Positions 8,675 to 34,599 of a stretch of 64,000 nt of DNA are shown in pieces. Numbering within the stretch: the stretch's first letter is position 1; each line of letters opens with the position of its first letter. The position numbers and the translations under genes are program-made. Under the pieces are notes generated by a model. It worked only from the letters and a program-made list of their open reading frames with translations, was not told the origin of the DNA and did no database searches. Origin of the DNA: Lentisphaera marina (GTDB lineage Bacteria; Verrucomicrobiota; Lentisphaeria; Lentisphaerales; Lentisphaeraceae); the NCBI RefSeq assembly GCF_028745505.1, contig NZ_JAQZZL010000001.1, positions 248,001-312,000 on the forward strand, given 5' to 3'.

Positions 8675-10147
8675 ATGAGAAACAGCGCCTTATCGAACAT
8701 TATTTCTATGACCATGATTATTGGGATAATAAGCTCTTTTATCACTAATGTAATGGCTGAGGAAAACACGGTTTATAAGCCCAACATCATCTACATTATG
8801 GTAGATGACCTCGGCAAAGAATGGATCAGCTGCTACGGCGCCGAAGACATTCAGACTCCAAATATTGACGCCCTGGCTGCAACAGGAATGAAATTTAATA
8901 ATGCTTATTCCATGCCCGCATGTACACCTTCGCGCACGACTCTTCTAACTGGCAAATACCCCTTCCGAACGGGCTATGTCAATCACTGGGATGTGCCGCG
9001 CTGGGGAATTGGCTATTTCGACTGGAAACAGAAAGAGAACACCACCTTTGCTCGTTTGATGAAAGAACAAGGCTACGCCACTTTTGCAACAGGTAAGTGG
9101 CAACTCAATGATTTCCGGCTAGAGCCACTAGCGATGCAGAAACACGGCTTTGATGATTGGGCCATGTGGACGGGTTGTGAAACTTCAAAGGATAAACAAC
9201 ACGAGAAGAAATCGACCCAACGCTACTGGAATGCTCATATCAACACCAAAGAGGGATCAAAAACCTACGAGGGTAAATTCGGGCCAGACATCTACACCGA
9301 TCACCTAATCAAGTTCATGCGTCAGCACAAAGACAAGCCCATGTGCCTCTATTACCCCATGGTACTACCTCATACACCTGTGGCTGCCACCCCTGACGAA
9401 CCCAAGGCCAAAGGCGTGCTCGGCAAGCACAAAGCCATGGTACGCTACATTGATAAGATGGTGGGTAAACTAGTAAAAGAGTTGGATGATCTCGGTATTC
9501 GTGACCGCACTATTATAATTTTAACTACGGACAACGGCTCTGCACCGCCTCCTCGTGGTGTCATTGGCACCCGAAATGGAAGAAAAATTGTGGGCGCAAA
9601 ATCGACGGAAACGGAAGCCGGCGTCAACGCTCCCTTTATTGTTAACTGCCCGGGGCTCGTCCCAGCTGGAGTCGAAACTGATGCCCTCACCGATTTTACG
9701 GATATCCTCCCTAGCTTTGTAGAACTTGGCGGTGGTGAAGTCCCTAAAGATCTTATTATCGACGGCTCCTCTTTTGCGCCCTTAATCTTGGGTGAAAAAC
9801 AGGATTCAGATCGCAAGTGGATCATGGCTCTTGGCTATGGAAGTGCTACCTTAGATGATAAGGGTGTGCGTGGAGCAAAAGATTTTTCCACTAGAGTGAT
9901 TCGCGATAAGCGCTACAAGGTCTGGATTTCCAATGAGAGACAAATCATTCGTTTACACGATCTCAAAAAAGACCCATGGGAAGAAAACAATCTCATCACT
10001 ATTGATAAGCCAGAACACAAAAAAGCTCTAGAGAAATTTCAAAGTGTGCTCGATTCTCTCCCAGAAAAGGATGCCCGCCCTTTGTATGAAGCGAGGGCAG
10101 CCAATCCCTGGGATCGAAATCTTATAAAAAGAAAAAAGAAAAAATAG
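8675..10147 (+). CDS. Secreted sulfatase (formylglycine type, S1 family)
   Basis: 490 residues with a signal peptide or anchor (about 5-28). Metal-binding DD pair at 44-45 (MVDDLG). Signature C-T-P-S-R at 83-87, where Cys83 would become formylglycine, then TTLLTGKYP. Further conserved parts are GKWQLNDF, a His-containing LPHTP and TTDNGS. Length is normal for S1 arylsulfatases. It closely resembles the next gene (shared SWHWDVPRWG-like region, GKWQ motif, matching C-terminus), so the two are a tandem duplicate. It probably releases sulfate from a polysaccharide fragment outside the cytoplasm. The positional specificity is unknown. Basic C-terminal KRKKKK tail. Confidence 0.94.
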   Translation: MRNSALSNIISMTMIIGIISSFITNVMAEENTVYKPNIIYIMVDDLGKEWISCYGAEDIQTPNIDALAATGMKFNNAYSMPACTPSRTTLLTGKYPFRTGYVNHWDVPRWGIGYFDWKQKENTTFARLMKEQGYATFATGKWQLNDFRLEPLAMQKHGFDDWAMWTGCETSKDKQHEKKSTQRYWNAHINTKEGSKTYEGKFGPDIYTDHLIKFMRQHKDKPMCLYYPMVLPHTPVAATPDEPKAKGVLGKHKAMVRYIDKMVGKLVKELDDLGIRDRTIIILTTDNGSAPPPRGVIGTRNGRKIVGAKSTETEAGVNAPFIVNCPGLVPAGVETDALTDFTDILPSFVELGGGEVPKDLIIDGSSFAPLILGEKQDSDRKWIMALGYGSATLDDKGVRGAKDFSTRVIRDKRYKVWISNERQIIRLHDLKKDPWEENNLITIDKPEHKKALEKFQSVLDSLPEKDARPLYEARAANPWDRNLIKRKKKK

Positions 10148-10151
10148 ATTC

Positions 10152-11564
10152 ATGATGAAAAGTAAACTTTTAAGCCTTTTATTTTTCTTAAGTTCTTTAT
10201 CAATTTGTGCTGATGAAGATAAAAAAATAAGCCAGCCCAATATCCTTTTCATCATGTTGGATGACCTCGGCAAAGAATGGCTGAGCTGCTACGGTGCCGA
10301 AGACATCAAGACCCCAAATATTGACGCCCTAGCAGATGGTGGCATGATCTTTAACAATGCCTACTCCATGCCCTCCTGTACACCTTCGCGAACGACAGTT
10401 CTAACTGGCAAATATCCCTGGCGTACCGGTTGGACCAGTCACTGGGATGTTCCGCGCTGGGGTGTGGCTTACTTTGATTGGAAGAAAAAGGAAAACACCA
10501 CCTTTGCCAGCCTCATGAAAGCCAATGGCTACTCCACTTGCGCTGTGGGTAAATGGCAGATCAATGACTTTCGGCTTGAGCCTCAGGTCCTGAAAAAACA
10601 TGGCTTCGATAAATGGGCCATGTGGACGGGCTTCGAAACGGGCAATCAAGCCAGTGCGGATCGCAATTACAGCCCTTATATCAATACCCCTGAAGAGGGC
10701 AGTAAGTCATATAAAGGGAAGTTCACGCCTGATGTCTGTACTGACTACTTACTCAAATTTATTCGTCAGTACAAAGACAAGCCCATGTGCCTTTATTACC
10801 CCATGCCGCTCCCCCACCCTCCACTCGTTGCCACCCCTGATGAGCCTGAGGCAAAAACCCGCCTCGATCGGCACAAAGCCATGGTACGCTACATAGACAA
10901 AACTATCGGCCAGATAGTTACGACTCTTGAGAAGCTAAAAATTCGTGAGCGCACCATCATCATCTTTTCAACAGATAACGGCACCATCCCCGGCATGACG
11001 GGCACAGTGAATGGACAGCCCATCAGGGGCGAAAAGGGAAGAACTTCTGAACGAGGCGTTTGTGCTCCTTTTATTGTCAACTGTCCAGGACTCGTTCCAG
11101 CAGGAGTCAAAAGTGATGCCCTCACCGATTTCTCTGACTTATTACCTACTTTTGTAGAACTCGCCGGTGGCGAGATTCCTAAAGACCTCATCATCGATGG
11201 CAAATCATTTGCGCCTTTAATTTTGGGTAAGAAAGAGGACAGCCCACGCGAGTGGATCATGTCAATCGGCCAAGGCGACGCTCAACTCACTAAGGACGGC
11301 GTTCGCAACAAAGATGCCTTTGGCAAACGCGTCATTCGTGATAAGCAATTCAAAGTATGGGTCTCGGAGAAAAAACTGATCATTCGCCTGCACTACCTTA
11401 AGAAAGACCCAAGAGAAAAAACCAATCTTCTCAATAGCAATCTTCCAGAGCACAAATTGGCCCTCAAGAAGTTCCAGGACATCGTCGACTCTCTTCCCGA
11501 TAAAGATGCCAATCGAGCATATACGCCCAGGACCACAAACCCCTGGGATATGAAACTCAAATAA
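10152..11564 (+). CDS. Secreted sulfatase, tandem paralogue
   Basis: 470 residues with a clear signal peptide (1-20). LDD metal ligands at 36-38. Signature C-T-P-S-R at 76-80, predicted formylglycine at Cys76. GKWQINDF and STDNGT follow, as in the gene just upstream, with which it shares most of its length. Divergence is visible around residues 170-180 and 280-295, which may shift specificity. It starts 4 bases after the previous stop. A sulfatase pair of this sort could remove sulfate from different positions of the same sugar; that is inference. Confidence 0.94.
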   Translation: MMKSKLLSLLFFLSSLSICADEDKKISQPNILFIMLDDLGKEWLSCYGAEDIKTPNIDALADGGMIFNNAYSMPSCTPSRTTVLTGKYPWRTGWTSHWDVPRWGVAYFDWKKKENTTFASLMKANGYSTCAVGKWQINDFRLEPQVLKKHGFDKWAMWTGFETGNQASADRNYSPYINTPEEGSKSYKGKFTPDVCTDYLLKFIRQYKDKPMCLYYPMPLPHPPLVATPDEPEAKTRLDRHKAMVRYIDKTIGQIVTTLEKLKIRERTIIIFSTDNGTIPGMTGTVNGQPIRGEKGRTSERGVCAPFIVNCPGLVPAGVKSDALTDFSDLLPTFVELAGGEIPKDLIIDGKSFAPLILGKKEDSPREWIMSIGQGDAQLTKDGVRNKDAFGKRVIRDKQFKVWVSEKKLIIRLHYLKKDPREKTNLLNSNLPEHKLALKKFQDIVDSLPDKDANRAYTPRTTNPWDMKLK

Positions 11565-11592: not shown

Positions 11593-13101
11593 ATGAAATG
11601 TCGAACGATGAGCACTAAGCTTACACAAACCATTAACTTTTTCGTGGTCATAAGCTTGCTGAGCTCAAGCGCAGTGCTTGCCAAAGACATCAAGCAAAAA
11701 CCAAACTTTGTCATCTTGCTAGCGGATGACGTAAGCTCAGATAGCATCGGCTGTTATGACTCTCCCAACCCCCACACGACGCCCCATATCGATAACTTGG
11801 CCCAAAACGGCATTAAATTCACTAATATGTTTCTTAGCGAAGCCATGTGCGCACCCGCAAGAGCAGAATTGTACACCGGTTTAATGCCCCAAAGAAATGG
11901 CACTTATCGCAATCACAAGGCTTCAAATCCCAATATTAAAAGTGTAGTGCATTATCTGAACGATCTTGGATACCGCGTTGGCCTCGCAGGAAAAAAGCAC
12001 ATCTCACCCGAGAAAGTATACCCATTTGAAACGGTTCCTGGTATTTGTGGTAAAGCTGCTGAAGCAAATCCCAAAGCCGATGACTGGAGCGGAGTTCAAA
12101 GCTTTATCAAACGCGATGCCAAGCAGCCCTTTTGTCTTGTCATTGGCTCCATTCATGCCCATTCACCCTGGACTGTCGGGGATACCAAATACTGGAAAGA
12201 AGAGGACGTCGTCCTGCCGCCAAATTTAGTTGATACGCCACAGACAAGGTCTGCTTATTGGCACTACCTGGCTGAGGTAAGGGAATTTGATCGACAAGTA
12301 GGTGACACCCTGAAAATTCTCAAAGAAAATAATAAACTGGATAACACAATCATTATTGTACTGGATGAAAATGGCACTGGTATGGTGGGAGGTAAATGGA
12401 CGGTCTTTGACTGGGGAGTTCGCTCAGCCTGTGTCATTAAATGCCCCGATAGCTGGAAAGCTAACTTTGAGACGGACGCCATCGCTCAGTACTGTGATAT
12501 CGTGCCGACTTTGATTGATGCCGCTGGTGGTACGCCCCCCTCTAGTCTAGATGGTAAAAGTTTACTCCCTCTCATAAAAGGGGAAACAAAGGACCATCGC
12601 AAACAAGCCTTTTTCCTCTTTAATAGCCGCGTCCATGAAAGCAAAGGCGACCCTCATTTCAGCATACGAGCCGTGACCAATGGTAAATATAAATTGATTT
12701 GGAATCTTACACCAGAAAATCTTTATGTGGTCAATGTCACTTCCACCGATTTAACTGGCAGAGTACGACCCACAGATCATGGCCGCATATATGCATCCAT
12801 GATTGATCGCATGAAGACGGATGAACATGCCAAAGCAATGGTCAATAGGATCCGATCCAGACCTCAGTATCAACTCTATGATTTACAAAACGATCCCTAT
12901 GAACTCAATAATTTAGCAGAAAATCCCGAATATTCTGCCATGATTTCAAAATTCAAAACAGAGATCAAAAAATGGATGAACGATCAAGGCGATGACGGCC
13001 ATGTAGATCCTGAGGGAATGAACGTCATCAAGTATAATGAGTATCAATTCCCCTATCCCAGAAAAACGAAGTTAATCGATGAAAATAGGACTAAAAAATG
13101 A
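11593..13101 (+). CDS. Secreted sulfatase with C-A-P-A-R signature
   Basis: 502 residues. The leader includes a signal peptide ending near residue 30; ATG at 11608 is an alternative start with a more compact leader. Metal ligands are in LADDVSSD (44-46). The active-site motif is C-A-P-A-R-A-E (Cys86), where Ala replaces the usual Ser. This still fits the broader C-x-P/A-x-R formylglycine consensus. GKKHISPE replaces GKWH, and the late metal motif DENGTG departs from the usual DNG. It differs clearly from its neighbours, so it probably attacks a different sulfate ester. The last codons overlap the next start by 4 bases. Confidence 0.92.
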   Translation: MKCRTMSTKLTQTINFFVVISLLSSSAVLAKDIKQKPNFVILLADDVSSDSIGCYDSPNPHTTPHIDNLAQNGIKFTNMFLSEAMCAPARAELYTGLMPQRNGTYRNHKASNPNIKSVVHYLNDLGYRVGLAGKKHISPEKVYPFETVPGICGKAAEANPKADDWSGVQSFIKRDAKQPFCLVIGSIHAHSPWTVGDTKYWKEEDVVLPPNLVDTPQTRSAYWHYLAEVREFDRQVGDTLKILKENNKLDNTIIIVLDENGTGMVGGKWTVFDWGVRSACVIKCPDSWKANFETDAIAQYCDIVPTLIDAAGGTPPSSLDGKSLLPLIKGETKDHRKQAFFLFNSRVHESKGDPHFSIRAVTNGKYKLIWNLTPENLYVVNVTSTDLTGRVRPTDHGRIYASMIDRMKTDEHAKAMVNRIRSRPQYQLYDLQNDPYELNNLAENPEYSAMISKFKTEIKKWMNDQGDDGHVDPEGMNVIKYNEYQFPYPRKTKLIDENRTKK

Positions 13102-15135: not shown

Positions 15136-17037
15136 ATGAACCCTAAAAACAAGAGATTGAGTCATATGAAAAAAATATTCCTAATAGGATTGCTGACGGC
15201 AGCTTGCTGTTTTGCCGCCCGTCCTGAAAAACCCAACGTGATCCTGCTCTTGACTGACGACCTCGGCTGGCAAGACGTGAAGTGTTACGACATCGATGCG
15301 CCCTCCCCCATGGAGACGCCCAATATTGATAAGCTAGCGAAAAAGGGTGTGCAGTTCTGGCAGGGCTATTCACCCGCACCGAGCTGTGCGCCGTCGCGAG
15401 CTGCGATCCTGAGCGGAATCCATCCCGCTCGAGCTCAGCAAACACATGTTTCCGGAGGCACCCCACCAGCTCCATATCACAAGACGCGGCACCGTATGAT
15501 GCCCCCCTGGTATAGAGCAAGTATGCCCATAGAAACCTTTACACTTGCCCAAGCTCTACGAGATAATGGCTACATCACCGGACATAGTGGCAAATGGCAT
15601 TTATCTAAAGTTTATGGTGGCTATCCGCAACCGCAGGATCATGGCTTTGATTGGAGCCGTAATAACCACGGAATTCTCACTGCAATGAAACCTCATCGCT
15701 TAAGCGGATTTGCCACAAATCAGGCCGACGACCCCTATCGCCTCGACGAAAAGGGCTTCTGTACCGACCAAAATAGTGAAGACGCCCTCACTTTTGTTCG
15801 CGAAAATAAAGACAAAGCCTTCTTCCTCTATTACGCCACCTTTCTCGTTCATACCCCAGTTCAAACACGCAATGAACGACTGCTGAAAAAATATTGCGAT
15901 AAATTGGGAGTGAAACTTCCTAAAAACCCTAAGGAGTGGAAGGGAGAGGGACAAACAAACCCCTTTTACTGTGCCATGGTTGAAGAACTCGACTATTATG
16001 TAGGCGAGCTATTCAATTATCTCGATACCACCGAGGATCCGCGTTGGCCGGGACACATGTTAAGCGAAAATACCTATATCATTTTCACCTCCGATAATGG
16101 CGGCATGGAAAAAATTCCTGGCGAGATCATCACCGATAACTTCCCCCTGCATCGCGGCAAAATCTCAGCTATGGAGGGCGGCGTCCGTGTTCCACTCATT
16201 ATTACCGGCCCTGGAATTGCCGCCGGTCAGCAATCCGATGTCATGATTAATGGCCTCGATTTTTATCCCACCATCCTTTCCTGGACGGGAACTCAAAAAC
16301 CCAAAGATAAAAGCTTGGATGGTTGCGATATTTCCACTCTACTAGCAAAAAATCCCGCTGACCCAGCCCTAGTCCGAGAGCAAAATGGATCGGTTCGCGA
16401 CACAATGATTTGGCACTTCCCATGTAGTGTGGCCTTGGAAAGCACAATCCGCATCGGCGATTATAAACTGATCCGTAATTATGATCACTTCAATAATACA
16501 CATGCGCCCGAGTTAGAGCTCTATCGTTTATACGAAACTCGCGAGGGCAAACAAGTCCGCAGTGACATCGAAGAATCGAAAAACCTCGTAAACAGCATGG
16601 CGGAAAAAGCCCAATCAATGAATCAAAAACTTACTGAAATCCTGGAAGGTATGAAGGCTAGCTATCCCTATTACAACCCTCATTACAAAAATCCCCTTCC
16701 GGGCAAAGAGCAAGTGCCTACGGTACTATCCCACAAGCAGCAAGGCTCGGTAGTGGAATTTACTTATCAGGAAAATGGGGCAAAAGTACTGCGGGCCAAC
16801 CTCCTGTATACCCTAAACGGTGGCGAGCCTGCAGAAGAATGGTTCCGAATACCCGCCGAGCTCATGACCGGGATGAAGGTTAGGGCCTCACTGCCTAAAG
16901 GGACGACACACTACCTCATTAACTTAATTGATGAAAACAATTTCCTCGTCAGTTATCCTAATATGGATAAGCCTACACATAAGAAGCCGGCTTCAGCTAA
17001 AGCACTTGTCAGTAGCGAAGCAGTCTACTCTCAATAA
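15136..17037 (+). CDS. Secreted sulfatase with C-terminal extension
   Basis: 633 residues, longer than the usual 450-520. AAGGA about 10 bases before the ATG at 15136 supports that start; the ATG at 15166 would give a cleaner signal peptide. DD at 41-42, signature C-A-P-S-R at 84-88 (formylglycine at Cys84), GKWHLSKV and TSDNGG follow. After about residue 520 there is an extra beta-rich domain of about 100 residues (GAKVLRANLLYTLNGGEPAEEWFRI), probably carbohydrate-binding or structural. Residues 110-130 hold an insertion rich in His, Arg and Pro. Probably the fourth sulfatase of the operon. Substrate unknown. Confidence 0.93.
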   Translation: MNPKNKRLSHMKKIFLIGLLTAACCFAARPEKPNVILLLTDDLGWQDVKCYDIDAPSPMETPNIDKLAKKGVQFWQGYSPAPSCAPSRAAILSGIHPARAQQTHVSGGTPPAPYHKTRHRMMPPWYRASMPIETFTLAQALRDNGYITGHSGKWHLSKVYGGYPQPQDHGFDWSRNNHGILTAMKPHRLSGFATNQADDPYRLDEKGFCTDQNSEDALTFVRENKDKAFFLYYATFLVHTPVQTRNERLLKKYCDKLGVKLPKNPKEWKGEGQTNPFYCAMVEELDYYVGELFNYLDTTEDPRWPGHMLSENTYIIFTSDNGGMEKIPGEIITDNFPLHRGKISAMEGGVRVPLIITGPGIAAGQQSDVMINGLDFYPTILSWTGTQKPKDKSLDGCDISTLLAKNPADPALVREQNGSVRDTMIWHFPCSVALESTIRIGDYKLIRNYDHFNNTHAPELELYRLYETREGKQVRSDIEESKNLVNSMAEKAQSMNQKLTEILEGMKASYPYYNPHYKNPLPGKEQVPTVLSHKQQGSVVEFTYQENGAKVLRANLLYTLNGGEPAEEWFRIPAELMTGMKVRASLPKGTTHYLINLIDENNFLVSYPNMDKPTHKKPASAKALVSSEAVYSQ

Positions 17038-18075: not shown

Positions 18076-18092
18076 AATTGCAGAAACTTAAA

Positions 18093-19019: not shown

Positions 19020-20759
19020 ATGAAAAAATTATCACTTATTCTGGCAATATTAGCCATCATTCCCATCTCTTTTGCAAAAGAAAACCAAGAGCAATTCGAT
19101 TCTCGAATGCAGTGGTTTGACGAAGCTAAGTTCGGCATGTTCATCCACTGGGGTTCTTATTCTACTCTCAAGGGCATTTGGAAGGGGGAGCCTATAAAAA
19201 AGTACGCTGAATGGATTCAGGCTAACGCAGATATTCCCAAAGAAGAATATGCTCCTATTGCCAAGCAATTTAATCCCTCAAAATTTAATGCTGACGAATG
19301 GATTCGAATTGCTAAAGAAGCGGGGATGAAGTACTTCGTTATCACCAGTAAACATCATGAGGGCTTTTGCCTATGGGATTCAAAATACACAGAATACGAC
19401 ATCAAAGATGCCTCGGGTGTTGACCGTGACCTTCTTGGAGAACTCAGTGCAGCCTGTAAAAAATACGGTGTGAAATTCGGTACATATTATTCCATCATCG
19501 ACTGGCACCATCCAACTCAGAAACCGCGTAAATCTGGTAATGCCTGGAACAAGTGGGGTAAACCGGAGTGGGCAAGCCCAATAGCAAAAGATGAATATGT
19601 GAAGTATATGAAGGCTCAACTTAAAGAACTCGTTGATCTTTATGATACGCAAATCTTTTGGTTTGATGGCGATTGGTGGCCCAATTGGAGCATGGAAGAT
19701 GGTGAGGATCTCTATGCCTACCTTCGCCAAATTCAACCCAATGCCATCATCAACAATCGAGTAGGAAAACGCGATCGTTCCAAAATCGATTTTGGAACAC
19801 CAGAGAATTTTACGCCAGGCTCTAAACTCGATTATTACTGGGAAGCGTGTTGGACAATCAATCATTCCTGGGGTTACAAAGAGCACGATAAAAACTGGAA
19901 AACGACTAAGGAGCTGGTTCAAAAACTCGTGGCCATTAATTCAAAAGGTGGCAACCTCCTACTCAATATAGGCCCCACTGCTGAAGGTGAATTCCCTCAT
20001 GGCTGCCTTGATCGCTTAGCGGGCATGGGCGATTGGCTTAAAGCCCATTCCGAAGCTATTTACAAAACGAACTTTCCCGAAGTCCCCCTTCAATCTTGGG
20101 GACGAGTACTTCAAAGAGGTAACAATTATTACTTCCACGTCTTTGAGTGGCCTAAAAATGGCCTCATCGAAGTGCAAGGCATGAACGCCGAAGTTGAATC
20201 CATCAGTCTAATGAATTCCGATGCGAAAATTTCTGCTCAAAATAAAGCAAGCTCCATGACTCTCACGGTTCCCAAAAATGGTACTAACCCTTATAGCTCC
20301 GTCATTAAACTCGTTGCTAAAGCTAAGTCGGTAAAAACTTTTGATAAGAATAATGACATCCCTCTCAGAAATGGTGATTTACTCCTTTTAGCCAACAAAG
20401 CTAAGATCTCTGGCAAAGGTGATTTAAGATTCGAGACTAAAGGCAAGAACCTCGGGTACTGGACATCTACGGGAAATATAGCGAGCTGGAATCAGGAAGT
20501 CGTTATTCCAGGAAAATATGAGGTCATCTTTGTTTATGCCTCAAAAGGTGGTGGCAGCACTTTTGAACTCCGAGTGAAAGGGCAAAAACTATCTAAGAAG
20601 ATAAAGAACACTGGATCTTGGACCGTTTATAAAACTATGAGTGCAGGCACCGTCAACCTGCCCGAACTCACCAACTACAACTTCAAAGTCAAAATGGTCG
20701 AGAAGAAAGGCGAGGCCTTATTCAACCTTAAATCCATTATTCTCCGCCCAAAAAAGTAA
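19020..20759 (+). CDS. Secreted alpha-L-fucosidase, family GH29
   Basis: 579 residues with a signal peptide (1-19). The N-terminal catalytic domain has all GH29 hallmarks: FGMFIHWGSYS (about 38-48), YFVITSKHHEGFCLWDSKYTEYD (about 105-127) and FWFDGDWW (213-220), in which Asp216 is the probable nucleophile. After about residue 360 come a beta-sandwich and a C-terminal domain of about 120 residues, probably carbohydrate-binding. It hydrolyses terminal alpha-L-fucosyl residues with retention. Its place at the end of the sulfatase operon points to a fucose-containing sulfated polysaccharide. Whether sulfated fucose is tolerated cannot be read from the sequence. Confidence 0.95.
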   Translation: MKKLSLILAILAIIPISFAKENQEQFDSRMQWFDEAKFGMFIHWGSYSTLKGIWKGEPIKKYAEWIQANADIPKEEYAPIAKQFNPSKFNADEWIRIAKEAGMKYFVITSKHHEGFCLWDSKYTEYDIKDASGVDRDLLGELSAACKKYGVKFGTYYSIIDWHHPTQKPRKSGNAWNKWGKPEWASPIAKDEYVKYMKAQLKELVDLYDTQIFWFDGDWWPNWSMEDGEDLYAYLRQIQPNAIINNRVGKRDRSKIDFGTPENFTPGSKLDYYWEACWTINHSWGYKEHDKNWKTTKELVQKLVAINSKGGNLLLNIGPTAEGEFPHGCLDRLAGMGDWLKAHSEAIYKTNFPEVPLQSWGRVLQRGNNYYFHVFEWPKNGLIEVQGMNAEVESISLMNSDAKISAQNKASSMTLTVPKNGTNPYSSVIKLVAKAKSVKTFDKNNDIPLRNGDLLLLANKAKISGKGDLRFETKGKNLGYWTSTGNIASWNQEVVIPGKYEVIFVYASKGGGSTFELRVKGQKLSKKIKNTGSWTVYKTMSAGTVNLPELTNYNFKVKMVEKKGEALFNLKSIILRPKK

Positions 20760-23352: not shown

Positions 23353-24297
23353 ATGAGACGAAGATTACCTAGTTTGATTCTGGCTTTGATGGCCTTGAGC
23401 TCGACCTCCACGGCAGAGCAGTCGAGTTCTCCTGTGAAGGCTCCCGCCTACCATGCATCCGTTCCAAAAGCAACTTTCTCAAACATCCCCTATGGTAAAC
23501 AGCAAAGACATATCCTCGATTTTTGGCAAGCTGTCTCTAACAAGCCGACGCCACTAGTTTTCGTCATTCACGGTGGTGGCTGGAAGAATGGCAGTAAAGA
23601 ACGTCTCAATCGCTTTGTCGATGCCTCTGCATTATTAAAACAAGGCATCTCAGTCGTAGCCATTAACTACCGCTTAATTAGAAAAGACACCGATATCAAA
23701 CCACCCGTCAAAGCTCCCTTATATGATGCCGCTCGTGCTTTACAGTTTGTCCGTAGCAAAGCGAAAGAATGGAACATAGATAAGAATCGCATTGCGGCCG
23801 CAGGAGCCTCTGCAGGTGCTTGCTCAAGTCTTTGGTTGGCCTTTCATGATGACCTTGCCGACCCGGAGAATGCTGATCCCATTGCCCGTGAATCAACACG
23901 CCTTTATTGCGCGGCCGTGAATAATGCTCAAACAACTTTAGACCCAAAGCAAATGAAGCAATGGACCCCCAATAGTAAATACGGCGGTCATGCGTTTGGC
24001 CTCCAAAATTTCGATGAGTTCCTCGCCGAACGAGCCGAGATATTACCGTGGATACAGGAGTATTCACCTTATGCTCTTGTTTCACCTGACGATCCACCCA
24101 TTTTTTTATCTTATAAGTCAGCTCCCGCTCTTGGTAAGAAGCAGAAAGACCCCACCCACACAGCTAATTTTGGCGTGAAGCTTCAGGAGCGTTGTATGGA
24201 ACTGGGAGTCAAGTGTGAACTCGTTTATCCAGGGGCTCCTAAGGTCAAATATAAAACAGCGACTGATTATTTAATTGCAAAATTGACAAACCCCTAA
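23353..24297 (+). CDS. Secreted alpha/beta hydrolase (esterase-like)
   Basis: 314 residues with a signal peptide (1-21). HGGGW oxyanion motif at 73-77 and nucleophile elbow GASAG at 151-155 (Ser153). The surroundings RALQFVRSKAKEWNIDK and DPIARESTR are nearly identical to the esterase at 35504, so these are paralogues. At the C-terminus, where the paralogue has DIAKHQ and the 7716 esterase has NAGHNW, this protein has YPGAPKVKYKT with no obvious catalytic His. A His in DPTHTANFG might serve instead, or the enzyme may be impaired. Next gene is a sulfatase 67 bases on. Deacylation of a polysaccharide is inferred. Confidence 0.85.
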   Translation: MRRRLPSLILALMALSSTSTAEQSSSPVKAPAYHASVPKATFSNIPYGKQQRHILDFWQAVSNKPTPLVFVIHGGGWKNGSKERLNRFVDASALLKQGISVVAINYRLIRKDTDIKPPVKAPLYDAARALQFVRSKAKEWNIDKNRIAAAGASAGACSSLWLAFHDDLADPENADPIARESTRLYCAAVNNAQTTLDPKQMKQWTPNSKYGGHAFGLQNFDEFLAERAEILPWIQEYSPYALVSPDDPPIFLSYKSAPALGKKQKDPTHTANFGVKLQERCMELGVKCELVYPGAPKVKYKTATDYLIAKLTNP

Positions 24298-24364: not shown

Positions 24365-25906
24365 ATGAAAAAATACCTTTATCTAAGTACAATCTTATTA
24401 ATCGTGAGTTTAAACCTCTCGATAATGCACGCAAAGGGAAGCAGTAAGCACCCCAATATTGTCATTATTTTGACCGATGACCTGGGTTATGGCGACGTCT
24501 CATTCTTGAATCCTGAATCGAAAGTGCGGACTCCGCATATGGATGCTTTGGCTAAAGCAGGCACCTGGGCTACAGATGCACATTCGCCGAGTACAGTTTG
24601 CAGCCCTAGTCGTTATTCCCTACTTACGGGTCGCTATGCCTGGCGTGGAAAATTGCGTTCTGGCCGTTTGAATCCCTGGGAAGAATCCGCCATCGAAAAA
24701 GATCGAGTGACACTACCAAAAATTTTGAAGAACAAAGGCTACTTTACCGCTTTGATCGGTAAATGGCATTTAGGTTTTGAATGGCCATGGAAAGGGGGTG
24801 AAAAACCGCCGGAATCCGTCATTGGCAAGGGCACGAGCAAAGCAACCTGTGATATGTTTGACTGGTCCAACCCCATTGAAGGTGGGCCATTGGGCGCTGG
24901 CTTTGACTATTACTTTGGAGACGATGTACCCAACATGCCTCCCTATGCCTTTATTGAAAATCAGCACTTAACTTGTGATCCCATTGATGTGGATGGGCGA
25001 AAATTCATGAAACAAGAAAGTATGAGGGCAGGTTATATCCATGGTGTCGGGCCTGGTGAGAAAGACTGGCAACTAGAAAAAGTCATGCCCACGATTACGG
25101 CCAAAGCCGTCGAATTTATTCAACAAAGAAGTAAAAAAGAAAATCCCTTTTTCCTCATGTTCGCTCAAACTTCACCACATAGTCCCATTGTCCCGCTCAA
25201 GAAATACCAAGGTCTGAGTCAAGCTGGTCCCTACGGGGACTTCATCGTACAAACGGATGATTCAATTGGTCAAGTTGTTGCGGCATTGAAGAAAGCTGGC
25301 GTTTATGAAAACACTCTCTTAGTTATCTCCAGCGATAATGGCCCTGCCCCCTTCATGCGCGAGCGTATCCAATCTCATAATCACAACCCCTCGGGACCCT
25401 TACGTGGTTTAAAGCGCGACCTACTTGAAGGTGGACATCGCGTACCATTTATTGCCTCCTGGCCCAAAGGTGGAATCAAAGGCGGTCGCAAAATTGATGC
25501 CCTACTCTCCCAAACTGACCTCTTTGCCACTATTGCAAAAATCATTGATCACCCACTCGCCGATGGTGTTGCAGAAGATAGCCTGAATATTTTACCGACA
25601 CTTCAATCCAACGAGTCCGTACGGCAGGAGCTCGTCTATCACGCGGCCAATGGAAAGCTGGGACTTCGCCAGGGATCATGGGCTTATTTACGCCGAGGTG
25701 GAATCAGTTCAGAGCCCGAGTGGTTCAAAAAATTATGGCAGGGTGGCTCTACTGATGTACCCGGCTTATTGTTCAACCTTTCCAATGATCTCGGCCAAAG
25801 GATCAATTTGTATGATAAATCACCAGAACGTATTCAGCGTATGGAGTCTCGTCTCGCTGAAATTCAAAAAGGTAAATCCACGCGCCAAGCACAAAAATCA
25901 AAATAA
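24365..25906 (+). CDS. Secreted sulfatase (arylsulfatase A-like)
   Basis: 513 residues with a signal peptide (1-23). LTDDLGYGDVS carries the metal ligands (38-39). Signature C-S-P-S-R at 79-83 is the most classical in the window, with SLLTGRYAWR following. GKWHLGFEWPW, SPHSPIVP and SSDNGP complete the active site. Length and the RLNPW insertion resemble exo-acting arylsulfatase A-like enzymes. It is followed after 31 bases by the giant GH95 protein, with which it is probably co-expressed. It may remove a sulfate that blocks fucosidase action, which would explain the pairing. Confidence 0.94.
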   Translation: MKKYLYLSTILLIVSLNLSIMHAKGSSKHPNIVIILTDDLGYGDVSFLNPESKVRTPHMDALAKAGTWATDAHSPSTVCSPSRYSLLTGRYAWRGKLRSGRLNPWEESAIEKDRVTLPKILKNKGYFTALIGKWHLGFEWPWKGGEKPPESVIGKGTSKATCDMFDWSNPIEGGPLGAGFDYYFGDDVPNMPPYAFIENQHLTCDPIDVDGRKFMKQESMRAGYIHGVGPGEKDWQLEKVMPTITAKAVEFIQQRSKKENPFFLMFAQTSPHSPIVPLKKYQGLSQAGPYGDFIVQTDDSIGQVVAALKKAGVYENTLLVISSDNGPAPFMRERIQSHNHNPSGPLRGLKRDLLEGGHRVPFIASWPKGGIKGGRKIDALLSQTDLFATIAKIIDHPLADGVAEDSLNILPTLQSNESVRQELVYHAANGKLGLRQGSWAYLRRGGISSEPEWFKKLWQGGSTDVPGLLFNLSNDLGQRINLYDKSPERIQRMESRLAEIQKGKSTRQAQKSK

Positions 25907-25937: not shown

Positions 25938-28900
25938 ATGAAAACCATCATCATGCTGACTTTATGTCTAGCACTCGCGTCGCTCGGCAATTCATCACCG
26001 AGAAAATACGAACTCTGGGAAGTAAAACCCGCGCCCAATAATGGCAGGACGAAATGGGAAGAAACAAAAAAGAGCAGACGACCCAATTCCTATGATAAAG
26101 ATTGGGAACGTTGGTCTTATCCGATCGGCAATGGCTACACAGGGGCTAATCTTTTTGGGCGGACGGATACCGAGCGTATTCAGATCACTGACAAAACCCT
26201 TCATAACAGAGGTAAATATAACAAGGGTGGACTGACTAGTTTCGCGGAAATACTGCTAAATTTCAGACATCATAAATTTACGGATTATCGTCGCTCACTC
26301 AATTTAAACGAGGCCATTGCCCATGTGACTTATTCACATCGTAATGTGACCTACAAGCGCGAGTATTTCGCCTCATACCCAGATAATATTGTCGTGATTC
26401 GTCTTACAGCTGACAAAAAAGCTTCGCTTTCATTTGATCTTCGTCCTGAAATCCCTTATTTGGAAAAAAAAGAGCGAACTGGCAAAGTTTCTGTAGATAA
26501 TAACCTTCTGACCCTCAAGGGAAGCATCCCTTTATTCAGCTGTAATTTTGAAGGCCAGATTAAGGTTTTAAATGAAGGTGGCACTATATCGCAACATCCA
26601 ACTCAAGGCATGATTAAAGTCAAGAATGCGGATGCAGTCACACTTCTTATTGCCACTGGCACCAATTACCGCCTCCATGAAAACACCTTCCGCAATGCGC
26701 CCGCAAAAAAACTTAACCCTAAAGAATCCCCTCATGAAGCTGTTTCTGCCCGCATGCAATCAGCTGAAAAACTGGGCTATGACCAACTCAAAGCCAGACA
26801 CCTTGAAGATTACCAAAATTTATTTGGCCGCGTTGCAGTCAATCTTAATTCAAAGCCTTCAATAGATCCCACTCACCTACTTTTGGAAAAATATAAAGCT
26901 GGCAAAACAAACACCTGGCTAGAGGAACTGATGTTTCAATATGGTCGCTACCTACTCATTTCTAGCTCGCGCGAAAAGAGTCTGCCCGCTAACCTACAAG
27001 GCGCTTGGAGTCAGGATTATTTCACACCCTGGTCAGGCGGTTTTTGGCACAACATCAATGTGCAGATGAATTACTGGGGCTCCATGAGTACTAATCTTGC
27101 CGAGTGCTTTCAATCCTATACTAATTTTTACAAAGCCTACCTTCCCATTGCTCGTGAACATGCTACAGACTATGTCCGCAAATATAATCCCACTAAGGTA
27201 GTAGAAGGTGGTGATAATGGTTGGATCATTGGTACTGGTGCTAACGCCTATCTCATCCCAAGTGCTGGTGGCCATTCGGGTCCAGGCACGGGAGGTTTTA
27301 CGGCTAAACTGCTCATGGATTATTATTTATTCACTAAAGATAAAAAATATCTCGAAGAAGTCGCCTACCCAGCGATGTTATCCTTGAGTAAATTTTACTC
27401 AAAAGTCTTGGTTCCCCATGAGGACAAACTTTTAGTCGAACCATCCGCCTCACCAGAACAGCTTGCCAAGCCTGAGCAAGTGAAAAACATGCCGGGAACA
27501 CTCAAGGGAGGTAAATATTACGTCACAGCGGGTTGTACCTTTGACCAAGGTTTCGTTTGGGAAAGCTATTCCGATACACTCAAACTAGCTGATGCCTTAG
27601 AGAATACGGATCCTTTCCTCGATACGATTCGTACTCAAATCGACAAGCTCGATCCGATTTTAATTGGTGCCGATGGTCAGATCAAAGAATACCGCGAAGA
27701 AAATCATTACAGTGATATCGGTGATAAAAGACACCGTCATATCTCTCATCTCTGTCCCCTCTTCCCCGGAACGCTGATCAATACTAAGCCCGACTGGATG
27801 CTGGCATCAATCAAAACCCTCGATCTCCGCGGCGATAAAACCACTGGTTGGGCATTGGCTCACCGCATGAATTGTCGCGCTCGACTTGGTGAAGGCGAGA
27901 AAGCCTATGAAGTTTATAAGCGTTTTATACGTGAACGCACCGTGCAGAATCTCTGGACCCTGCACCCACCCTTTCAAATTGACGGTAGCCTCGGCACCAT
28001 GGCAGGCGTAGCAGAAATGCTTCTACAGAGTCACAATGATTCTATCTCCGTCCTGCCTGCCTTGCCAAAAGCCTGGAAAAACGGGCATTTTGATGGCCTA
28101 GTCGCACGAGGAAATTTTGTGGTCTCCGCAAAATGGCAAGAGGGCAAGGCCAATTTAATTTCTATCCAGTCACGCAGTGGTGGTCAATGCCGCGTCAACT
28201 ATCCTGGAATCGCAAGTGCCACTATTACAGACAGCAATGGAAATACAGTAGAAGTCACGGGTGACGAAAAAGATCAGATTCACTTTTCTTCCACACTCGG
28301 AGAAATTTACCATGTTAAATTTGATCAAGAACTGCAGGCCAATACCAATCAGATCAAATTATTTGTCAGCCCTCAAGGTAATGATACTTCCGCAGGTACA
28401 AGTAAAGAAAAGCCTTTGGCATCACTCGCCCAAGCTCGTAAGCTCGCTCGCAGCTATGCAGGAAAACAAGCCGTCAGCATACAGGTCGCCGACGGGGTTT
28501 ACTACTTGCCCGAAACTTTAAGCTTCTCACCCGAAGACTCAGGAACGGCTGAATTCCCCATTGTTTACCATGCCGAAAATGAAGGCGGTGCAGTTCTGAG
28601 TGGTGGCTCTAGACTCGAACTTGAATGGAGCGCTCACAAAAACGGCATCGTCAAAGCACAAACTCCGCAAGACTTAGAAATTGACCAAGTCTTTATCAAC
28701 GGAAGTGCCCAGCGCATGGCGCGTTACCCGAATTACGACCCAAAAAAGAAAACCGATGCTTATCAAGGCTTTTCCGCCGATGCTTTTTCTAAAGATCGCG
28801 CGGCCAAGTGGGCCGATCCAGTAGGTGGCTATATTCACGCCATGCATGTTCACCGCTGGGGTGGCTATCACTACCGCATTACGGGAAAAGACCCTAAGGG

Positions 28901-31199
28901 TGAAGTGACTTATGAAGGCGGCTGGCAGAACAACCGTCAAATGGGCATGCACAAAGACTTCCGTATGGTAGAGAATATTTTCGAGGAACTCGATGCCCCA
29001 GGCGAATGGTTCCACAATGCCAAGACCTCTACCCTCTACTACATGCCCGCACCCGGCATAGATTTAACAAAAGCTAAGCTCGAGGTCGTGCGTCTCCGTC
29101 ACCTCATAGAATTCAAAGGAACACAACAATCTCCTGTGAAGCACATCTCTCTCCAAGGCTTTACGCTGCGCCACACCGCAAGAACTTTTATGGAGTGCAA
29201 AGAGCCTCTATTGCGCTCGGACTGGGCAATCTACCGCGGTGGCGCCTTTTTACTGACGGGAACAGAGGATATCAATATTCTTGATTGCGAATTCGACCAA
29301 GTCGGCGGCAATGCCATTTTTGTGAATAACTACAATCGTCGTGTTCAGGTTAAAGGTTGCCATATTCACGATGCAGGTGCTAGTGGCGTCTGTTTTGTTG
29401 GCGATCCAAAAGCCGTGCGCAATCCACTTTTTGAATACAAACAGGTCACTTCATTCGAAAAAATCGACCAAACTCCAGGACCAAAAAGCGATGATTACCC
29501 AGCCGACTCAATCGTCGAAGATTGCCTCATCCACGGTATTGGCAGAGTTGAAAAGCAACCCGCTGGGGTTCAAATTTCCATGGCTCAGGGCATCACTGTT
29601 CGTGACGTCTCCATTTACGACTGTGCACGTTCAGGCATTAATATAAGCGAAGGAACTTGGGGTGGCCATTTAATCGAGGGCTGTGACGTCTTTGATACCG
29701 TCTTAGAGACTCATGACCATGGCTCATTCAACTCCTGGGGACGCGATCGCTTCTGGCACCTCAAAAATGCACCCGCAGACAAGCTTCCCGAATTAGCCTT
29801 ACTCGATGCAGTAAAAACGAGCACCATCCGCAATAGTCGCTGGCGCTGCGACCACGGATGGGATATTGACCTCGATGATGGCTCAAGCAACTACGACATC
29901 TATAATAACTTGCTACTCGCCAGTGGCCTCAAATTGCGTGAGGGTTTCCGTCGCCACGCTTGGAATAATATCATGGTGAATAATGGTCTACACCCCCACG
30001 TTTGGTATCTTGGCAATGGGGACGAAGTTCACGGTAATATCCTCATGAGTCGACATCGCCCGGCACGGATGAAACGCCCCAATGCCGATGCTGCACGCGT
30101 TGATAAAAATTTCTTTTATGTTGCCAATGAAGCTCCAGTTAAAGCGACTTCAAAAACTTTAGGCTGGGACAAAAACTCGATCTTCGGCAACGCACAATTT
30201 ACTGACCCAAGCAAGGGTGATTTTTCTGTCAAAGACAATTCGCCCGCTCTGAAAATTGGCTTCAAAAACTTCCCCATGGACCAATTCGGGGTTAAGAAAC
30301 CTTCGCTCAAAAAGATCGCTCGTACGCCAAATTTACCTACTGTAAAAACTCAATCCGAGCCACAACCTCAGAAACGGACCCCCTTAGCGGACAGCTCTCA
30401 AATTATATGGTTCGGTGCAAGTATCCAAACCTTAGCAGGCGAAGAATTCTCCGCCTATGGCGTCAGTAAAGATGATGGTGGTGTGGTTTTAGTTGAGGTA
30501 TCCACAAATTCCGAGGCGGCTCGTCATGGCTTCGAAGAAGGTGATGTGATTCAGCAAATCAATGGCAAAGCTATTCGCACAAGTGAAGACCTGATTCAAA
30601 CTTATACTACAGCTGGAAAAAAAGCCCTCAAGATCAAATTGGTTCGCGCTCAGCAAGCGAAGGAAATCCTCATTGAAAAACATAGCTGGATCCAGATTGA
30701 GAACGCAGAGTCGCAAGCTGACTTTAAGCAAATACCTTTGGCCGCAGCCCAGAGTTTTCCTATCACGAGTAATAGTAAAACCGATAATGACCCCTTAAAA
30801 TCTTTAGTAGATGGAAAATTAGCGAAAAGCTATGGCCCCGTTTTTGCCAATGGAGTCAAGAGTGGTGCCTACAGAGTTGATTTGGGAAGTAATAAAACGA
30901 TTTCGGCTATTAACACATGGTCATATCATCTTGGTCCACGTGGTGAACAAAAACTTACTCTCTATGGCAGTGCGGCAAAAAAAGCACCAGGCTGGGACTC
31001 TAATCAGTGGACGGCTATCGGCAGTATCGATACCAGAGGACAAAAAAAGCGTGACTTTACCGCCGTTTCTCTACGCGCTACTGAAGGTAAATCACTCGGT
31101 GAATTCCGCTGGATCATGTGGAAGGTCGCTCCCGTTAGCTCCCGCAAAGAAAACACCGCCTTTCAGGAACTTCAGCTTGAATTCATGGGCAACAATTAA
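25938..31199 (+). CDS. Giant secreted enzyme: GH95 fucosidase + GH141-like beta-helix + PDZ + discoidin-like domain
   Basis: 1753 residues with a signal peptide (1-19). Residues 20-790 are GH95: ERWSYPIGNGYTGANLFG near the start, NINVQMNYW (Asn372, Asn374), VEPSASPEQ (Glu501) and FQIDGSLG (Asp682). These are in the order of the catalytic Asn/Asn/Glu/Asp set known for the GH95 1,2-alpha-L-fucosidase. From about 808 to 1470 is a right-handed beta-helix beginning LFVSPQGNDTSAGTSKEKP, with an architecture like GH141, a family with fucosidase members. A PDZ domain (about 1488-1578, VSTNSEAARHGFEEGDVI) and an F5/8C-like domain (about 1600-1753) follow. There is no internal stop or frameshift. The GH141 label is by pattern and less certain than GH95. 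Confidence 0.88.
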   Translation: MKTIIMLTLCLALASLGNSSPRKYELWEVKPAPNNGRTKWEETKKSRRPNSYDKDWERWSYPIGNGYTGANLFGRTDTERIQITDKTLHNRGKYNKGGLTSFAEILLNFRHHKFTDYRRSLNLNEAIAHVTYSHRNVTYKREYFASYPDNIVVIRLTADKKASLSFDLRPEIPYLEKKERTGKVSVDNNLLTLKGSIPLFSCNFEGQIKVLNEGGTISQHPTQGMIKVKNADAVTLLIATGTNYRLHENTFRNAPAKKLNPKESPHEAVSARMQSAEKLGYDQLKARHLEDYQNLFGRVAVNLNSKPSIDPTHLLLEKYKAGKTNTWLEELMFQYGRYLLISSSREKSLPANLQGAWSQDYFTPWSGGFWHNINVQMNYWGSMSTNLAECFQSYTNFYKAYLPIAREHATDYVRKYNPTKVVEGGDNGWIIGTGANAYLIPSAGGHSGPGTGGFTAKLLMDYYLFTKDKKYLEEVAYPAMLSLSKFYSKVLVPHEDKLLVEPSASPEQLAKPEQVKNMPGTLKGGKYYVTAGCTFDQGFVWESYSDTLKLADALENTDPFLDTIRTQIDKLDPILIGADGQIKEYREENHYSDIGDKRHRHISHLCPLFPGTLINTKPDWMLASIKTLDLRGDKTTGWALAHRMNCRARLGEGEKAYEVYKRFIRERTVQNLWTLHPPFQIDGSLGTMAGVAEMLLQSHNDSISVLPALPKAWKNGHFDGLVARGNFVVSAKWQEGKANLISIQSRSGGQCRVNYPGIASATITDSNGNTVEVTGDEKDQIHFSSTLGEIYHVKFDQELQANTNQIKLFVSPQGNDTSAGTSKEKPLASLAQARKLARSYAGKQAVSIQVADGVYYLPETLSFSPEDSGTAEFPIVYHAENEGGAVLSGGSRLELEWSAHKNGIVKAQTPQDLEIDQVFINGSAQRMARYPNYDPKKKTDAYQGFSADAFSKDRAAKWADPVGGYIHAMHVHRWGGYHYRITGKDPKGEVTYEGGWQNNRQMGMHKDFRMVENIFEELDAPGEWFHNAKTSTLYYMPAPGIDLTKAKLEVVRLRHLIEFKGTQQSPVKHISLQGFTLRHTARTFMECKEPLLRSDWAIYRGGAFLLTGTEDINILDCEFDQVGGNAIFVNNYNRRVQVKGCHIHDAGASGVCFVGDPKAVRNPLFEYKQVTSFEKIDQTPGPKSDDYPADSIVEDCLIHGIGRVEKQPAGVQISMAQGITVRDVSIYDCARSGINISEGTWGGHLIEGCDVFDTVLETHDHGSFNSWGRDRFWHLKNAPADKLPELALLDAVKTSTIRNSRWRCDHGWDIDLDDGSSNYDIYNNLLLASGLKLREGFRRHAWNNIMVNNGLHPHVWYLGNGDEVHGNILMSRHRPARMKRPNADAARVDKNFFYVANEAPVKATSKTLGWDKNSIFGNAQFTDPSKGDFSVKDNSPALKIGFKNFPMDQFGVKKPSLKKIARTPNLPTVKTQSEPQPQKRTPLADSSQIIWFGASIQTLAGEEFSAYGVSKDDGGVVLVEVSTNSEAARHGFEEGDVIQQINGKAIRTSEDLIQTYTTAGKKALKIKLVRAQQAKEILIEKHSWIQIENAESQADFKQIPLAAAQSFPITSNSKTDNDPLKSLVDGKLAKSYGPVFANGVKSGAYRVDLGSNKTISAINTWSYHLGPRGEQKLTLYGSAAKKAPGWDSNQWTAIGSIDTRGQKKRDFTAVSLRATEGKSLGEFRWIMWKVAPVSSRKENTAFQELQLEFMGNN

Positions 31200-33114: not shown

Positions 33115-34599
33115 ATGAAATACTTACTCATATTGTTATTATCTTTGACGAATTTAAATGCTAAAGAGGATGAAAAACCCAATATTGTTATCATCCTTCT
33201 AGATGACATGGGTTATTCCGACATCGGCTGTTTTGGCGGTGAAATAGAAACTCCAAATATTGATCAATTAGCTGCTACGGGAGTTCGATTTAATCAATTT
33301 TACAACACAGGTCGTTGCTGTCCCTCACGTGCTAGCCTCATGACTGGAATGTACTCACATCAAGTCGGCCTCCCTGGAATGATACCTCAAAATAATTTCA
33401 GTAATGATTGCACCACAATTGCGGAGGCTCTATCCTCCAATGGCTATCGTTGTATAATGAGTGGAAAATGGCATTTAGGTACTCGTAAAGGCGATAACCC
33501 TTGGGAAAGAGGTTTTGATAGGTTCTACGGCATTCCTAAGGGTGGAGGCGTTTATTTTTGGCCCAGCACTCTTGATCGTGATATCATTCGCTATGACAAA
33601 GAGCATGGCCCAATTGTTACAAAACCGAAAACAGGTTTTTATTCTACGGATGACTTTACCCATTATGCCATTGCCCAAATTGAAGAGGCCAAAGAAGATA
33701 ATGTGCCATTTTTTTTATATCTGCCTTATGTCGCGCCTCATTTTCCCCAACAGGCTAAAGAGCAAGATATTCAAAAGTATTTAGGACGATATAAAGCAGG
33801 ATGGGAAAAACTTCGCGAAGAGCGCTACCAACGACAAATTGAAATGGGAATCATCTCAGCTCAACATGAACTTAGTCCCTTTGATGGTGCCCCCTGGGAC
33901 AGCCTTTCATCAAAACAACAAACTGCCATGGATCGACAAATGGCGGTCTATGCGGCACAGATGGATAATCTCGATCAAAATGTTGGCAAAATATTAAATT
34001 GCCTAAGCAAGCAACAACTAGAAGACAATACGCTCGTCCTCTTCCTCTCTGACAATGGCGGTCAACTCAACGCTAATCTTGGCTTCGAAAAAAACAAAAA
34101 AGCTATATTTGGTAGTGCTCAATCATTTGGTGGCTACGCAAAAGGCTGGGCCAATATGAGCAATACTCCCTTTAGAAAATTTAAAATCACCGAACACGAA
34201 GGTGGCAACACCTCGCCTCTGATCGCCCGCTGGCCAGCTCGAATCAAAAACACCAAGGCAATCTGTCCTCAAGTTTCCCATATTATTGATATTATGCCCA
34301 CTTGTCTCGAAATTGCTGGTGTCAAAGAAGATAAGCTAGAAGGAAAAAGTATCCTCCCCTATTTAATTAACCCCGAAAAGGAACCCGAGTCACGTCAGCT
34401 TTTCTGGGAACATTTTGGCAATCGAGCCGTGCGTATTGGTGATTGGAAAATGGTTGCACTCAAGAAAAAAGCGTGGGAACTCTATAATATGAATGATGAT
34501 CGTACCGAACTTAGAAACCTCATAGAGACACATCCCGAACGAGCCAAAGAACTCCTTAAAGCTTATAAAAGCTGGGAAGCTCGCTGCAAAATGAAATAA
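33115..34599 (+). CDS. Secreted sulfatase with C-C-P-S-R signature
   Basis: 494 residues with a short signal peptide (1-16). LLDDMGYSDIG supplies the metal ligands (30-31). Signature C-C-P-S-R at 68-72; formylglycine is expected at Cys68. GKWHLGTRKG, LPYVAPHFPQ and LSDNGGQ follow. The family resemblance is to arylsulfatases acting on larger or aromatic-like substrates, and it is not close to the tandem pair at 8675/10152. It ends 15 bases before a convergent gene (34615). It has its own upstream region; no clear promoter was identified. Confidence 0.94.
   Translation: MKYLLILLLSLTNLNAKEDEKPNIVIILLDDMGYSDIGCFGGEIETPNIDQLAATGVRFNQFYNTGRCCPSRASLMTGMYSHQVGLPGMIPQNNFSNDCTTIAEALSSNGYRCIMSGKWHLGTRKGDNPWERGFDRFYGIPKGGGVYFWPSTLDRDIIRYDKEHGPIVTKPKTGFYSTDDFTHYAIAQIEEAKEDNVPFFLYLPYVAPHFPQQAKEQDIQKYLGRYKAGWEKLREERYQRQIEMGIISAQHELSPFDGAPWDSLSSKQQTAMDRQMAVYAAQMDNLDQNVGKILNCLSKQQLEDNTLVLFLSDNGGQLNANLGFEKNKKAIFGSAQSFGGYAKGWANMSNTPFRKFKITEHEGGNTSPLIARWPARIKNTKAICPQVSHIIDIMPTCLEIAGVKEDKLEGKSILPYLINPEKEPESRQLFWEHFGNRAVRIGDWKMVALKKKAWELYNMNDDRTELRNLIETHPERAKELLKAYKSWEARCKMK

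Follow-up and report, generated by a model that had tools for sequence, protein, structure and literature searches.

What does an exported bacterial protein do when it carries two glycosidase units, a PDZ domain and a discoidin-like tail on one chain? Such a protein is encoded in the window analyzed here, a 64,000-nucleotide stretch of Lentisphaera marina DNA. The first-pass annotation described a single unbroken frame of 1753 residues, with a GH95 domain followed by a GH141-like beta-helix, a PDZ domain and a discoidin-like domain, and suggested that two fucosidases act in turn. The frame and the domain order were both borne out, the last domain proving to be CBM32-like, while the functional proposal had to be revised.

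Domain organization of the fused protein

The frame (25938-31199, + strand) starts with ATG and contains no internal stop. A Pfam scan of the 1753-residue protein found the N-terminal, catalytic and C-terminal domains of GH95, Beta_helix and PDZ_2. The layout is as follows.

25938..31199, +: whole gene, 1753 residues (signal peptide, GH95, GH141-type beta-helix, PDZ, CBM32-like tail)
25938..25997, +: probable N-terminal signal peptide, residues 1-20 (sequence inspection)
25998..28322, +: GH95 half, residues 21-795 (Pfam PF14498, PF22124 and PF21307; phmmer matches to 7zo0, 2eab and others)
28323..28352, +: fusion linker, residues ~796-805 (comparison of four fused genes)
28353..30317, +: GH141-type right-handed parallel beta-helix, residues 806-1460, of the Wf141_3 type, probable endo-fucanase
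30318..30401, +: linker, residues 1461-1488 (pLDDT below 50 at model residues 668-681; conservation 0.37)
30402..30677, +: HtrA/DegQ-like PDZ domain, residues 1489-1580, with a W-F-G-A carboxylate-type loop at 1491-1494
30705..31187, +: C-terminal CBM32/F5-8C-like beta-sandwich, residues 1590-1750 (Foldseek fold match, below-cut-off profile)

Inspection of the N-terminal signal region (residues 1-20) revealed no lipobox. An AlphaFold2 model of residues 806-1753, built with 56 sequences, had a mean pLDDT of 91.7 and a pTM of 0.82. Values of pLDDT below 50 were confined to the linker between the beta-helix and the PDZ domain, which is poorly conserved and probably flexible.

Is the fusion genuine? 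A chance or assembly artefact was rejected because the fusion recurs in another species of the same genus (G002) as well as at two further loci (L061 and L074). Two separately translated chains were also rejected: residues 771-830 hold a single in-frame start, a TTG at 827, and this codon falls inside the beta-helix, past its start. No second signal peptide was visible by inspection at the GH95/beta-helix junction of the window gene.

The GH95 half

The GH95 catalytic-domain profile of Pfam matched residues 280-695 with 396 bits, and the profiles of the N- and C-domains also scored above their cut-offs. Alignment with the GH95 fucosidase BbAfcA located the catalytic residues.

27051..27059, +: catalytic N372 and N374, equivalent to BbAfcA N421 and N423 by alignment
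27456..27458, +: general acid E507, equivalent to BbAfcA E566, in place of E501
27981..27983, +: D682, taken as BbAfcA D766 (PPFQIDG motif aligned with other GH95 chains)

D766 of BbAfcA is named as a GH95 catalytic position, and the mutant in structure 2ead is E566A (PMC10154630). The sequence SPEQ of the wild-type BbAfcA chain (2eab) is SPAQ in the mutant chain, and the Glu of SPE is present in all nine aligned GH95 sequences. E501 is confined, among the same nine, to the window protein and its orthologue in a sister species (G001). Because the two BbAfcA chains differ at the SPE position and E501 is not conserved, the general acid is taken to be E507 rather than E501. Of the Asn/Asn/Glu/Asp set listed in the first-pass annotation, N372, N374 and D682 therefore stand, and its Glu moves from E501 to E507. 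By homology, the catalytic set N372/N374/E507/D682 is complete.

GH95 is an inverting family with alpha-L-fucosidases or L-galactosidases as its members. Residue 370 of the window protein (27045-27047) is Trp, as in two GH95 paralogues of the same genome. The aligned residue is His in BbAfcA, FucOB and sequences from L053, L077, L089 and L103, and Thr in the solved GH95 structures 4ufc, 2rdy and 7kmq. With Trp in place of His, the sugar-binding site may be altered, and the target sugar of the GH95 unit could differ.

A beta-helix half of GH141 type

A Foldseek search with the 806-1753 model placed chains of 5mqp, the structure of BT1002, at ranks 1-4 (best E 6.2e-28). The best chain had a TM-score by target of 0.64 and was ~18% identical in the Foldseek alignment. 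A profile of eight close relatives (A1), searched against the PDB, recovered 9rx2 (E 1e-63), then BT1002/5mqp (E 5.5e-39), then HtrA-type PDZ domains. The closest PDB chain by sequence is thus 9rx2, entitled 'parallel beta-helix repeat protein', which outscored 5mqp; no mention of a function for 9RX2 was found in the open-licence literature. Alignment of the beta-helix with six GH141-type sequences by hhalign gave 100% probability over 608 columns. The Pfam profile GH141_M fell below its cut-off (19.6-21.3 bits vs 27), and its score is near or under the cut-off in many other GH141-like frames too. Residues 806-1460 are a GH141-type beta-helix; the Foldseek and profile matches to BT1002 uphold the resemblance noticed at first pass, and in the alignments made D1313 and probably D1260 correspond to the catalytic Asp pair. 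The outcomes named at first pass as refuting the reading, a beta-helix without GH141 matches or with its catalytic residues lost, were thus not observed at the level of alignments.

These residues were placed by comparison with BT1002, in which D523 and D564 are the essential Asp residues (PMC10154630). The spacing of 41 residues between them fits the motifs YDVAG and YTDEGSS in the BT1002 chain.

29715..29717, +: D1260, probable counterpart of BT1002 D523
29874..29876, +: D1313, counterpart of BT1002 D564 (LDDGSS / YTDEGSS)

D1313 lies opposite D564 in every alignment that covers the site (full-length and sub-region hhalign, 4 of 4 MAFFT modes), so that its assignment, though alignment-based, is firm. 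D1260 is the likely counterpart of D523. The two were paired in three of the four MAFFT modes and in two sub-region hhalign runs (probability ~2%, E 0.02 and 0.007); the pairing was absent from the remaining MAFFT mode and from full-length hhalign, where an insertion shifts the register, and a third, shortest sub-region run gave no information. This variation among alignments could be taken to mean that the beta-helix half has no catalytic activity and binds substrate only. However, D1260 and D1313 are invariant in 56 sequences, as are large parts of the motifs DHGSFNSWGRD and DLDDGS, and a relative 62% identical to this half, Wf141_3, is reported to be active. A dead beta-helix is accordingly regarded as highly improbable. 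Three more distant relatives carry Glu at the D1260 position.

A probable endo-fucanase rather than a second fucosidase

What does the beta-helix half cut? Four GH141 proteins of Wenyingzhuangia fucanilytica were reported in December 2025 as endo-fucanases without alpha-L-fucosidase activity (PMC12786026). One of them, Wf141_3, was assigned to GH141 by its authors and was reported to break fucoidan, including that of brown algae, into oligosaccharides. According to the same report, the Wf141_3 preparation was not homogeneous, and detailed study was limited to Wf141_1 and Wf141_2 (PMC12786026).

The Wf141_3 gene was located by means of the primers in Table 1 of that report. Of 397 genomes searched, one contained an exact match to the gene-specific portion of the Wf141_3 forward primer, and the 20 kb around the match contained both primers of Wf141_2, Wf141_3 and Wf141_4; the Wf141_1 primers were not found within those 20 kb. 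This genome (G450) was taken as W. fucanilytica on the basis of the primer matches and the construct boundaries. The Wf141_3 frame (L162 8407-10779) encodes 790 residues, and the published construct, L23-K687 (PMC12786026), fits it exactly; its end lies 12 residues short of the PDZ motif, which is at residue 700. The reported Wf141_3 activity is thus that of a PDZ-less construct, since L23-K687 stops upstream of the PDZ domain. In the same cluster, a GH95 gene (L162 17283-19988, - strand) encodes HDTNVQMAY and LFQADAN in place of the HNINVQMNY and PFQIDGS of the window protein, and the activity of its product may be altered.

Window residues 806-1579 are 62% identical to Wf141_3, with the same motifs and a PDZ domain in both. 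This value falls within the 50-85% identity to Wf141_3 given in PMC12786026, and the window beta-helix is placed in the Wf141_3 type. The report sets Wf141_3 apart from the GH141*6 branch that holds Wf141_1, Wf141_2 and Wf141_4 (PMC12786026). In keeping with this, alignments showed the xHQxWxxxD and xRxDx motifs of that branch to be absent from the window protein, which has the stretches LLRSDWAIYRG and IDLDDGS.

By extension from Wf141_3, the beta-helix half is a probable endo-fucanase. The protein is read as an exo-fucosidase joined to an endo-fucanase, not as two fucosidases, because of this identity. Two exo-alpha-L-fucosidases acting in turn on two fucose linkages, as first proposed, would agree with the fact that the characterized BT1002 is a GH141 fucosidase whose Asp pair has counterparts in the beta-helix. 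However, BT1002 is distant (18% identity, Foldseek alignment), whereas Wf141_3, the nearest tested relative found, is reported to be endo-acting and to lack alpha-L-fucosidase activity. A pair of exo-enzymes is therefore considered quite unlikely.

The PDZ domain is a recurrent accessory

The PDZ_2 profile of Pfam scored slightly above its cut-off (29.2 vs 27 bits), and the fold matched the HtrA2 PDZ domain in 2pzd (Foldseek, TM-score by target 0.65), a structure solved with a peptide ligand. The first-pass annotation was right that a PDZ domain in an exported glycosidase is unusual, but the combination is not peculiar to the window protein. A search of the host phylum with the beta-helix alone matched 30 of 387 genomes, own genome included, at E <=1e-60. 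Taking one locus per genome, the PDZ domain was present in 28 of the 30 (the exceptions being L178 and L191) and the tail in 13. A profile search of contigs recovered at least 570 confirmed relatives, of which 80 loci were kept; 78 of these loci yielded 81 frames, while L089 and L112 gave no frame by the criterion used. The PDZ domain was present in 80 of the 81 frames and the tail in 52, in a search whose query alignment held the PDZ domain. A ranking artefact was rejected as the source of this prevalence, given the outcome of the beta-helix-only search. The record titles of the relatives (at least 570) name Planctomycetes, Verrucomicrobia, Lentisphaerae, Bacteroidetes, an Armatimonadetes and a gammaproteobacterium. 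Open reading frames in relatives were called mechanically.

The window genome has 14 PDZ places, this one included; three of the others lie in a tricorn-like protease, a DUF6288 protein and a tail-specific protease. No published discussion of a PDZ domain on GH141 was found in the open-licence literature, where PDZ and fucanase were found mentioned together, in the text available, only in a diplonemid genome paper.

What does the PDZ domain bind? The first-pass annotation suggested C-terminal peptides of neighboring proteins. Anchoring of the enzyme to proteins from the same locus would fit the peptide-bound HtrA2 structure and the conservation of the loop (W-L-G-A among relatives), in which conservation reaches 93% for W, 80% for G and 82% for A. 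Among the PDZ domains of relatives, it also extends to SAxG and to the R and Q of VRxQ. However, the alpha-B helix, which usually sets PDZ specificity, is variable, and no ligand signal was found in the C-termini of neighbors: a hydrophobic C-terminal residue is present in 12 of 85 adjacent co-directional proteins, compared with 91 of 391 other open reading frames of the same loci. In other words, such ends are rarer next to the gene than elsewhere in the loci. The suggestion thus gained no support, and anchoring to products of the same locus is very unlikely. The PDZ domain is probably a conserved, flexibly tethered accessory of the Wf141_3-type group of GH141 that is dispensable for catalysis in vitro, since the tested Wf141_3 construct stops before it. 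Most likely it binds a partner protein within the cell envelope.

The C-terminal tail and other extensions

The F5/8C profile of Pfam fell below its cut-off on the tail (19.6 vs 27.8 bits). The predicted fold matches CBM32 modules (Foldseek, 7d29, TM-score by target 0.73, 18% identity), and the tail is modeled as a galactose-binding-like, CBM32-like fold. A tail 45% identical to it ends a GH29 protein in G002 (L056). A tail with the same identity to that of the window protein occurs in a 1269-residue sulfatase-GH29 fusion of G020 (L053 6281-10090, - strand).

Some relatives extend beyond the tail, with a SASA esterase and F5/8C (L082), GH16, CBM4_9 and GH129-like domains (L128) or a weak, sub-cut-off TAP-like match (L070 and L072). 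At the other end, a 1208-residue beta-helix-PDZ frame (L193, G771:C242) has an N-terminal domain of ~400 residues. A Pfam scan of a slice missing that domain returned Beta_helix only. The domain presumably resembles a GH43-type glycosidase, and L193 is perhaps another fusion of the beta-helix-PDZ group. N-terminal extensions of L088 and L110 were rejected as fusions: they match no Pfam family, and their composition is like that of a spurious open frame.

Gene neighborhood

The window genes around the fusion were assigned with Pfam.

7716..8672, +: second BD-FAE-type esterase
8675..10147, +: sulfatase
10152..11564, +: sulfatase
11593..13101, +: sulfatase
15136..17037, +: sulfatase
19020..20759, +: GH29 alpha-L-fucosidase
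23353..24297, +: BD-FAE-type esterase
24365..25906, +: sulfatase directly upstream of the fusion, with orthologues also upstream in G002 and G001
33115..34599, +: downstream sulfatase

The window open reading frames that were scanned include genes for at least six sulfatases, one GH29 fucosidase, two esterases and one AraC-type regulator. The loci of relatives supplied 137 adjoining open reading frames, of which 89, all co-directional and no more than 400 bases away, were scanned. These 89 genes included 13 sulfatases, 11 GH29, 5 GH95 and 4 GH43.

Other genes are interspersed. Endonuclease/exonuclease/phosphatase-family genes lie among the sulfatases (13098-14075, 14113-15075 and 18078-18911), and transposase genes lie in and around the sulfatase and fucosidase genes (4266-5585, 21051-21878 and 36488-38086). 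A set of related genes begins at window positions 3307, 22246, 31632, 40507, 43194, 44225 and 45336; those at 22246 and 31632 have N_methyl matches (Pfam), one of them with DUF1559 as well.

History of the fusion

The fusion was found in three genomes besides that of the window. G002 carries it whole at 80% identity, while the fused copies at L061 and L074 are cut by contig ends at the 5' and 3' end, respectively. In the sister species G001, GH95 (80%) and beta-helix-PDZ (81%) are encoded by two genes that are separated by a GDSL-type hydrolase gene. The orthologous sulfatase and one more sulfatase lie upstream of them. Two unfused genes also lie side by side, 49 nt apart, at L063, in the same MAG as L061. 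The separate forms at L047, L063 and L049 have similar signal peptides.

At the fused junction, the stretch from GE to VSP (VGP in L074) is 25 residues long and gapless in all four fused genes. This equal length points to one fusion event for the four. In trees of 25 and 13 rows, fused and unfused forms are intermingled, and two or three changes are required; the long branches of L090_1 and G003_L050 probably come from trimming. Later splitting or gene conversion is likely because of this mixing.

A model for fucan hydrolysis

From the architecture, the residues assigned by homology, the recurrence of the fusion and the gene neighborhood, we infer activities, a substrate and an order of action. 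The favored reading, which we hold to be reasonably probable, is an exported, bifunctional fucan hydrolase that combines an exo-fucosidase (GH95) with an endo-fucanase (GH141-type) and has a PDZ accessory. The Wf141_3-type beta-helix would cut the alpha-L-fucan backbone internally, probably by means of D1260 and D1313, and the GH95 unit would take terminal alpha-L-fucose off the resulting fragments. The CBM32-like tail may keep the enzyme on its substrate, and the nearby sulfatases, esterases and GH29 enzyme would strip sulfate, acyl groups and fucose.

Which fucan is attacked? Brown algae are rare in lakes and ponds, and lake- and pond-derived records occur among the relatives. Together with Trp370 and the many sulfatases near the gene, these records would suit an exo/endo pair for another sulfated polymer (a diatom fucan, a sulfated galactofucan or similar) instead of brown-algal 1,3/1,4-fucoidan. 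The close identity to Wf141_3, reported to act on brown-algal fucoidans, argues against such a polymer, which is an unlikely though serious candidate.

The bifunctional fucan hydrolase would be made of known families in a probably new combination, with an exo-fucosidase and an endo-fucanase on one chain; GH95 and GH141 together were not found among the matches listed from the open-licence literature. Fucans belong to the algal polymers that are broken down slowly, and they are relevant to marine carbon storage (PMC12786026). An exo/endo fusion that occurs in nature predicts which pair of activities works together, and it offers a single-gene tool. Most Wf141_3-type enzymes found carry the PDZ domain, yet it was omitted from the published construct. 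One speculative and improbable extension is that a large group of fucan endo-hydrolases from several phyla uses the C-terminal PDZ domain to hold partner enzymes in an envelope-bound complex, as a PDZ counterpart of dockerin assemblies. The GH95 fusion would then be such a partnership made permanent.

Comparison with known systems

The GH95 half has the same domains and catalytic residues as the fucosidases BbAfcA (2eab) and FucOB (7zo0). It differs from them in being fused to GH141 and in having Trp370 where they have His. The beta-helix half shares its fold and the probable Asp pair with BT1002 (PDB 5mqp), a GH141 alpha-L-fucosidase. However, the two are only ~18% identical, other motifs flank the Asp residues, and the aligned BT1002 chain has neither the GH95 fusion nor the PDZ domain of the window protein.

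Wf141_3 has the motifs and the C-terminal PDZ domain in common with the window protein, and its locus holds two sulfatase genes and a GH95 gene within the same 20 kb. In contrast to the window protein, it is unfused to GH95 and has no CBM32-like tail. It was tested without its PDZ domain, and the word PDZ is missing from the main text of the report (PMC12786026). Lastly, the window PDZ domain resembles those of HtrA/DegQ in sequence and fold. In HtrA/DegQ such a domain accompanies a protease, whereas here it comes without one, and a linker that is probably flexible ties it to a glycosidase.
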